Shown here: piece after piece, positions 45,201 through 50,440 of the stretch
How positions within the stretch are numbered: position 1 is the first letter of the stretch
Layout of the letters: each line of letters opens with the position of its first letter
NCBI RefSeq assembly: GCF_963675165.1
Contig: NC_087381.1
Coordinates: 2,108,001 to 2,172,000, forward strand
Length of the DNA stretch: 64,000 nucleotides
Direction of reading: 5' to 3'
From: Halichondria panicea
Taxonomy: Eukaryota; Porifera; Demospongiae; Suberitida; Halichondriidae
Notes under the pieces: model-generated
What the model saw: the letters and a program-made list of their open reading frames with translations, nothing else
The model's database searches: none
What the model was told of the DNA's origin: nothing
Position numbers and translations under genes: made by a program

Positions 45201-47876
45201 AATTGATATAACAGCATTTGCAGGGTTCTTTGCATAGTTGGTAGAGGGCTTCTGTTCTTTTAAGCCTTTCCTGTGAGAAGTACAGTGTACAAGGTGCCAC
45301 AACACACACTATAGATAACCTCTCAAAGAAGTGATAATAGCTAACTGGTGTTAATTGTAACCACTGTACTATAAGGCATTTGTCTGGGTGCCTGTAGCTA
45401 CCAGAGAATCACTCTAAAAAGGAAGGGAATGTTTACCCACAACAACTGAACTGAAATGAAACTTGATCTTTGAGGATGATCATAATTTGTAGGCTAACAA
45501 CTAGTGCTTGAAGTAAGTGAGGTCACCTGGCTGATTTGTTTATCCACTTTAATTAGCAAGCGGTCCCCACCCCACTTATGTCTGGTCAAAACAGTCAACA
45601 ATGCCAGTGCCTGTCCTAAAAAAATGGCTTGCTTTTTGTACCTGTCAGCAATAAAAATTAATAAAGGCTGATGGAATTCATGGAAATCTATCATTTTTTC
45701 GATGAAAGTTCTGGCCCTTGTTTTCATTTATATTTGACTCACTTACGTACACATCGTAAAGTATAGTACCCTAACCGAAACGCAATGGAATGCTTAATTT
45801 TAGCCCGTATAATAAGTAATATCATTACTACAAGCTATTTTAAGAGGGATTGAATCTCACAGTGACACTAATTACCCCCCACAGTGCTCCCCCCTGTACT
45901 GGTACCTACCAACATGCACCACGACATCCCTGTATACCGTCCCCCTCTCCCTCCTGATGACACACTCCCGGCGAATATGACCCTGCCCCCTTACAGTGAG
46001 GAACAAGTTTGTTATAAGAATAATTGTTTATTTCCTCCAATTAATACCGTATTTTATCTTATTGAACGATTGTGATAAAGAAACAGAAAAAGGAGAGCCT
46101 GTGTAGAAGGCTATAGATGTCCCTATATTTTACTAACACACTTATACCTGCTGATACAAAGAATCCCTGTAGAGGTTGAAATCAATCTGTGTGTATAGAA
46201 TTATATAGTCATGTCTATTATAGTGATTGTGTTCACTTCACCCATCTGTACACCCCCTCGTACGTACACACACAGCAGGTGATGAACCCCCTACCTATCA
46301 TCAGTCAGAGGACGGAAATGGGCTCTGTGTAGACAGCCCCCCAGGGCCGGGCAGCCAATTTTCGTCTTCAGGTGGTGAGTAGACTGTGGGATTGTATTCA
46401 CCGAGGCTATATATAATTACGTAGAAATGAAGTTTTACGGTAACAGTAATAAACCCAAATTTCTGAGTTGCTAATTAATTAAGTGTGAGTTAAAAATTTA
46501 TGAAATTATTGCATAATTAATAAACACACACACACACACACACACACAGTTGGATCCCCTCTCTCTCCTTCATCGTCTGGTCCCGAGTCTATCCCTCCAC
46601 CATCCTATGGTAAGTCTATTATTTTATTTTGTCTCCCTTACTTAACAAAATTCACTTTATATGTCTATATAGATTGTAGGTTGTGTTTTTATAATTATAG
46701 CTGTCATAATTATAACCACTGTGGTGAGTGCCACTAGAGTATTTGTTTTGAATGCCTCTCCCCCATAAAAAAAGAAAAGAATATTAAGAGAGAGAAGTTG
46801 TTATGATGTGGTGTAGGTGTACCACTGAATGACCCCATTCTGTAATTCTATCTATTGCTGTTTGGTCATTGTAGCCTAAAAAGTAGTTTTTTTGTCATAG
46901 CAGGCAATCTTTGTGATGAGGTCACTGAAGATTGCATGTGTTTAGCTCTGATCTCTCCCCCACTCTTAATCACTAGCATTCCATAGTGTGAGAGATGAGT
47001 GAGGGTTTGTTTTGATTCCATGTCCACAGGACTGATAAAGCAGCTTGAAAAGTTATATAGGTAGTTTATTAATAACCTGCCAGAGTCAACTAATTCAAAT
47101 GGTCACATACATATACGATAACCTTGATCATAGTTAGGCGACCATGACTTCAATATCGTAAAATTATATTGTTTCACAATTACAAAAAGTACTATTTCTT
47201 ACATACCATAATTATCGTACTGTAATCCACAGCTGAAAGCCCTCCACCTTCGGTCAGCTACGAGAGTGTCAACTATCTTGAGCCGGCATACTGGTGTTCT
47301 GTCTCGTACTATGAGATGAAAAACCGTGTAGGTGAAATCTTTCAAGCCTCTAAACCGAGTTACACTGTCGATGGCTTCACTGATCCAAGCTCCTCTGATC
47401 GATTCTGTCTAGGCCTCCTCTCAAATATCCATAGGGACCAGCAAATCGAGCAGACTCGAAGATTCATTGGTAAAGGCGTCCATCTGTTTATGGTGGGCGG
47501 TATCGTGTACGCCGAATGTGCCAGCGAAGCTAGTATATTTGTGCAAAGTCCAAACTCGAACATGGGCTTTGGTTGGCATCCTGCAACTGTGTGCAAGATC
47601 CCCCCAGGCTGTCACATGCAAGTGTTCAACAACCGAGACTTTGCCGACCGACTTGCTTCGAGTGTACATTCTGGATTTGAGACAGTTTACCAGCTTACAC
47701 GCATGTGCACAATTCGTATAAGCTTTGTAAAAGGATGGGGTGTGGAGTATCGGCGGCAGACGGTCACCGCTACCCCTTGTTGGATAGAGGTTCATCTGAA
47801 CGGCCCCTTGCAATGGCTGGACAAGGTTCTGACGCAAATGGGTTCACCAAGTACAATCCCTCACTCTGACTCCTAG
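42275..47876 (+). CDS. Smad: Receptor-regulated SMAD (SMAD2/3-like), proximal MH2 isoform
   Basis: Exons 42275-42413, 42717-42811, 43659-43830 (MH1, aa 1-135), 45885-45995, 46279-46374, 46550-46609 (linker), 47233-47876 (MH2); 438 aa, usual R-SMAD size. MH1 shows [23 protein letters not shown], the DNA-binding hairpin [20 protein letters not shown] and CVNPFHY. The linker is rich in proline and has a PPTY motif, a possible WW-domain ligand. MH2 has [20 protein letters not shown], the L3 loop [20 protein letters not shown] and [17 protein letters not shown]. Known: R-SMADs are phosphorylated by TGF-beta-type receptors on the tail serines, bind SMAD4 and regulate transcription. RRQT in L3 resembles SMAD2/3 rather than SMAD1/5. 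The tail is HSDS, so the last two SxS serines are kept but the first serine of SSxS is replaced. A second linker+MH2 cassette lies downstream. Confidence 0.95.
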
Positions 47877-49215
47877 ACACACGTACACCATTCCTCAAAT
47901 CATAACTACTATACTCTATAATTATTATCCGAACAACGTTGCTACACACAACAATGTATTGTATTTCACTGGACAGTTTTGTTTTTCACAAAGTTACTGA
48001 CTTATTATAGTTTTGTATCTCAATAATTATTATTATTCACCAGATTTTTGTAAGTGATTATTATTATCACTTCTGTATACTTCATCAAGTTTGATATGAA
48101 TTTTCTTATTAACCGTTATAATTATGCAGGTGTTCAGAGGTCCTCTTGTCGGAAATTAAACGTTCCTTTTAGCTTTAATTCTCAAAATGTAATTAATTTT
48201 GATTACCATTAAGTGTATAATTAGTAAGACCCTCTAAATGTGCGGACTATATATAGTGGAGGGGGGAAGCTGAAGTGTTGGGTTTTCTATAGACATATCT
48301 GTTGTTAGGACATGACTGAGCTAGTTGAGAGGCTATAGCTATATGACTAGTGGCTAGGCCACATGGGGAGAAACTTCCTCCTGCCTCCCACGTATATACG
48401 GCATATCTATGAATGAAGCTTGAACAGTATGTATTAATTAATTAAAAGGACTTGTCTTTGTTTTAAGTTTTGTTGTGCTACCAATAAGATTAGATCATTA
48501 GTTTGGACAAAACCTGTGTTATGTATGCCTTCTTTGGTCTTCGAAAAGCTTCGCATGCTCTATAAAAATCTGTTCCAATTATATACCTTGATGATACAGA
48601 TATGGTTGGCATATATATAGACTGGAAACCACTAGCTCCCTTCACTGCGTTCATGGGGGTCGACTGGCAAGCTGCTGTGTTAAGAGTTGTCCCGTTGGAA
48701 AGCAATTACAACAAAATGCGTAATGCATGGGTGATATTGCTTCAGCCTCGAGAACAGACCGCCAGTGATGTACTTATAATTCGAGGCCAGATAAAATTTC
48801 GTGCAGTAATAGTTAGCGCGTGAGCAGTGGCACATGAATATTTGTGACATTAGCATTCTTGTGGGAGCGTGACATTCTTCACATATGCACTGGGACAACT
48901 CTCAACACGGCAGCTTGCCAGTCCCTAGAGCACAGTGAAGGGGAGTGGTTTTCAGTCTGTACTGCATAATTATAGTACCCTGATACTTCAGATTATGACG
49001 TTAGCGTTAGAAAAATAATGCTGCATAGTGTGCAATGATGCAGGAGTCATGCCGGCTAAGGGGGAATCTGTGATTGAGGCTTTAATTGGCCGGTGCATGT
49101 ATGTTATTTTGTTAGAGTAGAGCAGAGCATGCATGGCTACAATTATTCTTCATGCATAGCAAACGTCTGACACCCTGACACTATTTACCCACCCACCCAC
49201 ACACACATACCACAG
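47877..49215. other. Interval between the two SMAD MH2 cassettes
   Basis: No gene seen. It would hold the 3' UTR and polyadenylation site of the proximal SMAD isoform and act as intron for the distal one. A short piece around 48550-48580 matches the inside of the transposon at 38815-38850 (GCATGCTCTATAAAAATCTG). The 71-73 aa open frames at 48490-48900 overlap on both strands and resemble nothing known. Confidence 0.5.
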
Positions 49216-50440
49216 ATGGAGCTTCTCTCTTCTCCACCACCTTAATGGGTACGGAGCACATCCCTCCACTCTCATTCAGTAAGTCTATGTACTTCACAAA
49301 TATTTTCATTTCCTCTGTATAAAGTATTAAAAGTTTTCCCAGTATTAGTACAACTGCATGGGTAGTAAAAGTGTTATTAAGAGTATAATTATGATATAGA
49401 GAGAGTATCGAACGTAGGCATACTGTGTATCAGATGTATGCATTAGATGTATGCGGAGAGTAACGTGACTTCCTGTATCTGTAATCTACATCACCCACAC
49501 TTGGATTGGTCAGTGTGCAAATTCCAAGCTTGTGACAGATACAGGAAGTCACGTTACTCTCCGCATACATCTGATGTACAGTACGCCTACGTTCGATACT
49601 CTCTTCTCTATCATATACTCTTGGTACTAGATAGTGAGTTGCATGCCTTCTTTTCTTTTATACGCCCTTGATGATATTTCCATGCATAATTCCACCTATA
49701 ATCATTGTTACAGTAGTACCGTATGAACAAAATAATATTATCATAATTATCGTGTGAACAAGCTATTATCATAATGATTATTCTATACAGCTGAAAGCCC
49801 CTCACCTCCTTTCAACTACAACTTCGTCCACTATGTTGAGCCGGCTTTCTGGTGCTCGGTACAGTACTACGAGATGAAGAACAGTGTTGGTAAAATGTTT
49901 CAAGCTTCTAACAAATCTTTTGTTGTCGACGGTTTCACCAGTCCAAACTGTTTGGACCGATTTTGTTTGGGGGTCCTTTCCAACACTGAAAGGGAGAAAG
50001 AGCAGAAAATTGAAGAAACCCGGAACAGTATTGGCAAAGGTGTCCATCTTTACAAGGTCTGTGGTATCGTGTACGCGGAGTGTTTGAGTGATGCACGTAT
50101 CTTTGTTCAAAGTCCTGTTGCAAACATTGGTTATGGTTGGCATCCTGCAACCGTCTGCAAGATTCTTCCTGGGGAAAATATTCCAATCTTCAACTTCCAA
50201 AAGTTTGCTGCTCAACTTGGTCAGTCTGCGAATTCTGACTTCGAGACTGTGTACAAGCTTTCACACATGTGCAAGATTCGTATCAGTTTTGTAAAGGGAT
50301 GGGGTATTGATTATCGGAGACAAAGCATTACCGCTACCCCCTGCTGGATTGAGATTCAATTGAACGGTCCCCTGGAATGGCTGGACAGAGTCCTGGTAAG
50401 AATGGGATCTCCGAGCACGACCCCTCACTCAAATACGTAA
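49216..50440 (+). CDS. Smad: Second SMAD linker + MH2 exon cassette (alternative 3' end of the same gene)
   Basis: Exons 49216-49278 (linker, [21 protein letters not shown]) and 49791-50440 (complete MH2, ending HSNT then stop). They have the same phases as exons 6 and 7 of the upstream SMAD, so exon 5 (ending 46374) could splice to either cassette and give a 438- or 441-aa protein. There is no second MH1 in the window. The MH2 is full length and open, keeping [50 protein letters not shown] and [17 protein letters not shown]. Differences include a two-residue insertion before the TRN...IGKGV helix, CKILPGEN instead of CKIPPGCH, and a terminal threonine in place of the last serine. It could instead be an MH2-only gene or a decaying duplicate, but it shows no stop or frameshift. 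Confidence 0.8.
49401..49603. mobile_element. Hairpin MITE (GAGTATCGAACGTAGG family), copy c
   Basis: Best-preserved copy: inverted arms of about 85-90 bp, including GGAGAGTAACGTGACTTCCT on one side and its complement on the other. It sits in the intron between the distal SMAD linker and MH2 exons, so the pre-mRNA could fold strongly here. Confidence 0.75.

Follow-up and report, generated by a model that had tools for sequence, protein, structure and literature searches.

Here we describe a SMAD gene of the demosponge Halichondria panicea in which a single MH1 domain is followed by two complete MH2 domains. The gene lies on the plus strand of a stretch of 64,000 nucleotides (contig NC_087381.1, positions 2,108,001 to 2,172,000 of assembly GCF_963675165.1), which we refer to at its full length as the window. 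Starting from an ATG at 42275, five common exons (E1 to E5, 42275-46374) encode MH1, which is split across E1-E3, and the first part of the linker, and they are followed by two cassettes, proximal (P6, P7) and distal (D6, D7), each consisting of a linker exon and an MH2 exon (Table 1). The exon model was built by eye and with a script and is a prediction from the sequence. The joins E3/E4, E4/E5, E5/P6, P6/P7, E5/D6 and D6/D7 are all in phase 1, AG acceptors precede all four cassette exons and GT donors follow both linker exons. Neither spliced frame contains an internal stop, the proximal one comprising 1317 nt (438 aa) and the distal one 1326 nt (441 aa), stop codons included in the nucleotide counts. 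Both MH2 exons match positions 2-174 of the 174 in the Pfam MH2 model (PF03166), and in the proximal protein PF03165 (MH1) is matched at 33-133 and PF03166 at 244-414. The intron ahead of MH2 is also in phase 1 in both SMAD1/5-like paralogues of this genome, as read by eye. A first-pass annotation had proposed the four cassette exons, with matching phases and splice signals, a full-length MH2 with its own stop in each cassette and only one MH1 upstream; its exon coordinates prove to be base-exact, and we find the same phases and signals, the same open frames and the same single MH1 for two MH2s. The locus shows marks expected of alternative last exons, namely homologous tandem exons with an equal acceptor phase and a stop of their own.

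Table 1. Predicted exons of the SMAD gene and other features at the locus (positions in the window)
Feature	Position	Strand	Remarks
Common exon E1	42275..42413	+	start codon and first MH1 part; ends in phase 1; the stop-to-stop open reading frame around it begins at 42260
Common exon E2	42717..42811	+	MH1 continued; ends in phase 0; alternative acceptor 3 nt on (42720) possible
Common exon E3	43659..43830	+	end of MH1; ends in phase 1
Common linker exon E4	45885..45995	+	both ends in phase 1
Common linker exon E5	46279..46374	+	PPTY; donor GTG/GTGAGT; both ends in phase 1; acceptor 46276 also possible
Proximal linker exon P6	46550..46609	+	60 nt; two SP sites and PPSY
Proximal MH2 exon P7	47233..47876	+	own stop; starts ESPPP, ends HSDS
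Distal linker exon D6	49216..49278	+	63 nt; no SP site; PPLSF replaces PPSY
In-frame ATG in D6	49245..49247	+	possible local start of an MH2-only protein
Distal MH2 exon D7	49791..50440	+	own stop; starts ESPSPP, ends HSNT
ATTAAA, candidate poly(A) signal	48155..48160	+	279 nt downstream of the proximal stop; matched by consensus only; further candidates at 48441 and 49326
AATAAA, candidate poly(A) signal	50719..50724	+	279 nt downstream of the distal stop; matched by consensus only; a further candidate at 50840
Repeat with inverted ends between the cassettes, like a miniature inverted-repeat transposable element (MITE)	48618..48958		repeat search
Second MITE-like element, palindromic, in the intron between D6 and D7	49379..49623		repeat search

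The two MH2s share a common descent, and both copies are old and have been under long purifying selection. The alignment of the cassettes spans 234 codons, with an amino-acid identity of 64% (150/234); codon positions 1, 2 and 3 differ at 53, 46 and 113 sites, and the method of Nei and Gojobori (NG86) gives 0.24 nonsynonymous (dN) and 1.28 synonymous (dS) substitutions per site; the distal copy, which has no MH1 of its own, has thus stayed useful. When the proximal MH2 frame was mutated neutrally at 0.2, 0.4, 0.64 and 1.0 substitutions per site, with 2000 runs at each level, only 43, 0, 1 and 0 runs remained free of stops, the mean number of stops being 4.0, 6.1, 7.8 and 8.8. In a maximum-likelihood tree of nine MH2s, a modest test with one long branch, the proximal and distal domains are sisters (97% ultrafast bootstrap), and approximately unbiased (AU) tests reject the grouping of the distal MH2 with human SMAD2/3 (0.001), of the proximal MH2 with human SMAD2/3 (0.001) and of the distal MH2 with the sponge's own SMAD4 (4e-8). 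From the tree and these tests, the duplication most likely took place within this gene's lineage, once that had separated from the lineage of human SMAD2/3. Outside the exons, the introns and 3' flanks of the cassettes show no clear similarity except for CA-rich sequence of 24 nt at both linker acceptors (E 0.001) and ten bases at the start of the last intron. The acceptor of E5 is CA-rich as well, so we make no regulatory claim for these sequences. An assembly or haplotype artefact was considered and rejected: the cassettes are only 64% identical in amino acids, and there is no N in the window.

The number of MH1 and MH2 domains was counted by an exon-by-exon search of the sponge's own genome (131,455,214 bases in 39 contigs), in which all first-look candidates were scored (9/9 for MH2, 7/7 for MH1) and the exons of one gene were grouped; the counts are lower bounds. 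There are at least five MH2 domains (7 matches), one on contig C4, one on C16, two in the window and one on C5 at about 6.91 Mb, spread across three exons, and at least four MH1 domains (6 matches), on C4, on C16, in the window and on C5 at about 6.91 Mb. MH1 thus falls short of MH2 by one on these lower-bound counts, and the missing one is that of the distal cassette. The case named by the first-pass annotation against its own reading, a separate MH1 elsewhere that is spliced to the distal cassette, finds no candidate here, as the same genome-wide search left no MH1 spare. By sequence, H..D in the L3 loop marks the paralogues on C4 and C16 as SMAD1/5-like; the other gene on C5 is SMAD4-like. 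None of the five MH2s from this search looks SMAD6/7-like; the same is reported for the demosponges Halisarca (PMC8235796) and Amphimedon (PMC3169577), in keeping with a sponge genome. For Amphimedon ten SMADs have been counted, two of them SMAD2/3 and two unclassified (PMC3169577), and an earlier count gave two SMADs (PMC2657120). Prokaryote genome contigs gave 17 pattern matches and viral contigs 25, with no confirmed relative among either, as expected for an animal gene.

We favour the reading, to which we assign a probability of roughly 0.6, that this is one shared gene with alternative last exons transcribed from a single promoter. The last two exons of a receptor-regulated SMAD (R-SMAD) gene of SMAD2/3 type would have been duplicated in tandem long ago, and one promoter would give a pre-mRNA with E1-E5. 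Splicing of E5 to P6 and ending after P7 would yield an ordinary R-SMAD, whereas read-through and splicing of E5 over 2841 bp to D6 and D7 would yield a second SMAD that shares the DNA-binding half but has a diverged effector half, lacking the two SP sites and the PPSY of P6 and with HSNT replacing HSDS at the end that receptors phosphorylate. We infer that E5 is joined to D6, that one promoter serves both endings and that the two products differ in function. A duplicated 3' end carries no promoter; thus, splicing from E5 is the simplest way in which it could have been useful from the start. The first-pass annotation had read the locus in the same way, and the single MH1, the two full MH2s, the phases, the purifying selection and the lack of a spare MH1 all speak for it, as do two observations that follow; the interchangeability of the cassettes, discussed below, is put too strongly.

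The first of these observations is that the sequence between the cassettes yielded no MH1 relic, the lowest tblastn E being 2.8 and the best DNA match to E1-E5 having 16 nt (E 0.09), as expected if the duplication took only the 3' exons. A whole-gene duplication with later loss of MH1 is weakly excluded by the same result, but relics could decay at a dS of 1.28; such an origin would leave the present layout unchanged. The second concerns the acceptor of D6, which has a 55-nt AG-free run upstream and CTGAC at -46 and -38. AG-free runs of at least 55 nt precede 2 of the 80 AGs between the cassettes, that of D6 included, and 2.5% of the 4072 AGs in the window. With this acceptor-like context, D6 is probably spliced from something upstream, which need not be E5 of this gene.

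Several points weigh against a shared gene. First of all, the seven remaining acceptors of the gene have AG-free runs of between 2 and 59 nt, and the context of D6 is accordingly weak evidence. Second, D6 contains an in-frame ATG at 49245, and the similarity detected between P6 and D6 DNA starts only downstream of it, at 49248. Third, the intron between E5 and D6 would be the longest of the gene at 2841 nt, the others measuring 175-2054. Fourth, the ratio of observed to expected CpG shows strong depletion in SMAD introns 2, 3 and 6 (0.10, 0.13 and 0.22, within 42812-47232) and no depletion between the cassettes (0.53, 0.63, 0.42), a pattern that would fit a break between two transcripts. The ratio is also less reduced, at 0.44-0.70, in introns 1, 4 and 5 and at the end of intron 3. 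As the introns of the paralogues are not uniform (0.18-0.70), CpG depletion is an unreliable mark of a transcribed gene body here. Finally, the two copies have evolved unequally, and the clade that they form with human SMAD2/3 has a support of only 64%. The distal branch is 0.395 long and the proximal one 0.108, some 3.7 times faster evolution of the distal copy, and Tajima's test finds the distal copy faster with four outgroups (chi2 8.1, 8.8, 8.0 and 5.45), but with Drosophila Mad as outgroup the difference is not significant (chi2 3.3); changes confined to the proximal and to the distal copy stand at 11:29, 11:30, 8:24, 10:20 and 9:22 for the five outgroups, Mad being the fourth.

In the main rival reading, conceivable though in our judgement rather unlikely, the distal cassette would form a gene by itself, driven by a promoter in 47877-49215 and making an MH2-only protein from the ATG at 49245 or else from a local first exon that has escaped recognition; such a product would bind receptors or other SMADs but not DNA, and would act as a modulator or competitor. 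The 1339 bp between the cassettes offer room for a promoter, the ATG would give an 11-residue leader before the junction with the MH2 exon, and both the faster evolution of the distal copy, with its altered C-terminal motif, and the undepleted CpG between the cassettes, a measure made unreliable by the varying paralogue introns, would suit a gene of its own. Moreover, isolated MH2 domains of SMAD6/7 are enough to repress TGF-beta signalling (PMC4990216). On the other hand, an acceptor-like context at D6 is needless in a first exon, the frame remains open upstream of the ATG beyond the acceptor, as far as an in-frame stop at 49176, and a duplicated 3' end would begin its life without a promoter. 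Use of both routes, in which the distal cassette serves as a last exon of the shared promoter and also gives a local MH2-only transcript, or in which mixed joins such as P6 to D7 occur, is improbable; the common phase 1 and the in-frame ATG would allow it, but we have no direct evidence for any mixed form. That the distal cassette is a relic, unexpressed or drifting, is very improbable. Its longer branch and its changes at positions invariant in R-SMADs point that way, but the frame and splice sites are intact at a dS of 1.28, the neutral simulation accumulates stops, and the proximal copy also has such changes, with no significant difference between the two: among 118 positions that do not vary across six other R-SMADs, the proximal MH2 keeps 99 (19 changed) and the distal 90 (28 changed; p 0.19). 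Trans-splicing of E1-E5 to the distal cassette from separate transcripts can practically be set aside, for although shared 5' and alternative 3' exons form the architecture in which it is known, as in insect mod(mdg4) (PMC4667647), the common exons and the distal cassette here lie on the same strand, only 2.8 kb apart, and ordinary cis-splicing is enough.

If a shared gene with alternative last exons is assumed, its two products would differ throughout the effector half. P6 carries two SP sites and PPSY and D6 neither, having PPLSF. At the start of the MH2 exon, on the other hand, P7 has one SP and D7 two, and the PPTY of E5 is common to both products; judged by these motifs, the distal change is thus not a clean loss of SP and PPxY. 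The consensus end of R-SMADs is SSxS, of which the last two serines are phosphorylated (PMC3500652). In the proximal HSDS the two acceptor serines are present and the serine before them is absent; the distal HSNT does not fit SSxS and has a serine and a threonine at the acceptor positions. The first-pass annotation had spoken of two R-SMADs, which suits the proximal form with its SMAD2/3-type domains and residues; the distal form, as its end fails SSxS, we call SMAD2/3-like and not a proven R-SMAD. The SMAD1/5-like paralogues end in GSNT (C4; L014, about 4830) and SSIS (C16; L015, about 5312), and two of this genome's MH2s that belong to different classes, those of the distal cassette and of C4, thus have a Ser-x-Thr end.

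The residue pair of the L3 loop, which we take to be a mark of SMAD2/3 type, is R..T in the proximal MH2, as in SMAD2/3, and R..S in the distal MH2. The proximal domain also has GWHP, of SMAD2/3 type, and not GFHP or HFHP, and it is mixed at the other columns that separate human SMAD2/3 from SMAD1 types. In the stretch YGWHPA...N the distal copy has Y, W and N like human SMAD2/3, and the proximal one F, W and H; the distal MH2 further contains a two-residue insertion. In the PDB set, both MH2s match human SMAD2/3 best (356 bits proximal and 287 bits distal to SMAD2), and the distal one is no closer to the inhibitory SMADs (I-SMADs) than to R-SMADs, with 74 bits to the SMAD7 chain versus 287 to SMAD2. 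AlphaFold, given an alignment of four rows, modelled both MH2s with very low confidence (mean predicted local distance difference test, pLDDT, 35.3 and 43.6), and the models were not used. To describe the cassettes as interchangeable, as had been done, is too strong, for they have different linker exons and C-terminal phospho-motifs and unequal numbers of changed invariant positions (28/118 distal versus 19/118 proximal). From these motif and residue differences we infer that the distal ending would be an activatable but differently tuned effector. SMAD8B, which has no SSXS end, inhibits its full-length form (PMC4990216), and a competing role for the distal form is by analogy possible.

As for the neighbourhood of the gene, the last exon of a translin gene lies on the same strand at 41912-42115 (PF01997, E 3.6e-25) and stops 159 bp before the SMAD start codon; this leaves hardly any space for a promoter of the SMAD gene, except in the case of a 5' untranslated exon or a shared transcript. 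For the element at 48618-48958, the best 40 of 528 genome candidates all match at E 8.2e-66 or better, its own copy included. For that at 49379-49623, many of the best 40 of 391 candidates share 97-99% identity with roughly half of its length (query 118-256), and these near-identical partial copies indicate a family with recent copies. On the minus strand, 50794-52764 and 52921-55098 hold two open reading frames in tandem (656 and 725 aa), which resemble each other closely on inspection by eye; both have many hydrophobic stretches and cysteines but no Pfam match at E 0.01, and weak matches at 54751, 58399 and 61504 hint at further copies.

SMAD2/3 genes have the same order of MH1, linker and MH2, but here there are two MH2s per MH1, and the distal one departs from SMAD2/3 in its L3 pair R..S, its SNT end and its two-residue insertion. 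Alternative 3' ends are known in SMAD5-beta, SMAD6B (alternate exon 4), SMAD7-delta and SMAD8B, where they truncate or remove the MH2 or its tail (PMC4990216); SMAD6B, with its alternative 3' exon, is the nearest in mechanism, whereas here the second ending is a complete and conserved MH2. Splicing also alters SMAD function in SMAD2 delta-exon3 and in the linker splice forms of SMAD4 (PMC3500652, PMC7140685, PMC11063908), but there exons of MH1 or the linker are skipped. In line with the first-pass annotation, no SMAD with two alternative whole MH2 domains is described among the papers listed in our searches of the open PMC literature. Beyond SMADs, insect mod(mdg4) joins a shared 5' BTB exon to alternative 3' ends of zinc-finger type, some of them tandem exon repeats (PMC4667647). 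It has many 3' ends and trans-splicing, whereas here two 3' ends stand in line on one strand. Insect lola has a layout similar to that of mod(mdg4). Duplicated exons of a pathway domain also occur in vertebrate TGF-beta receptors, whose ligand-binding domain is repeated and of which marginal single-domain splice forms exist in chicken and horse (PMC13187141); there, however, the domains are serial in one protein and mostly both included. If the distal cassette were started locally, its layout would resemble that of the I-SMADs, but its MH2 is SMAD2/3-like instead. The MH2-only SMADs of Echinococcus, which our literature search did not find, would likewise resemble such a locally started cassette.

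In Xenopus assays, a frog MH2 put into the sea-anemone SMAD2/3 raised part of the inducing activity (PMC3500652), and the natural pair of MH2s described here is thus directly testable. Tentatively, the locus may represent a splice switch in a single early-animal SMAD2/3 gene, in which the same DNA targets would be coupled to a different receptor response, different cofactors and a different turnover, and in which the second output would possibly be weaker or competing. If this is true, the swap of a whole MH2 would separate the choice of targets from the response to the signal within one gene, and a genome whose search gave no I-SMAD would gain a second SMAD2/3 output with no need for another DNA-binding gene.

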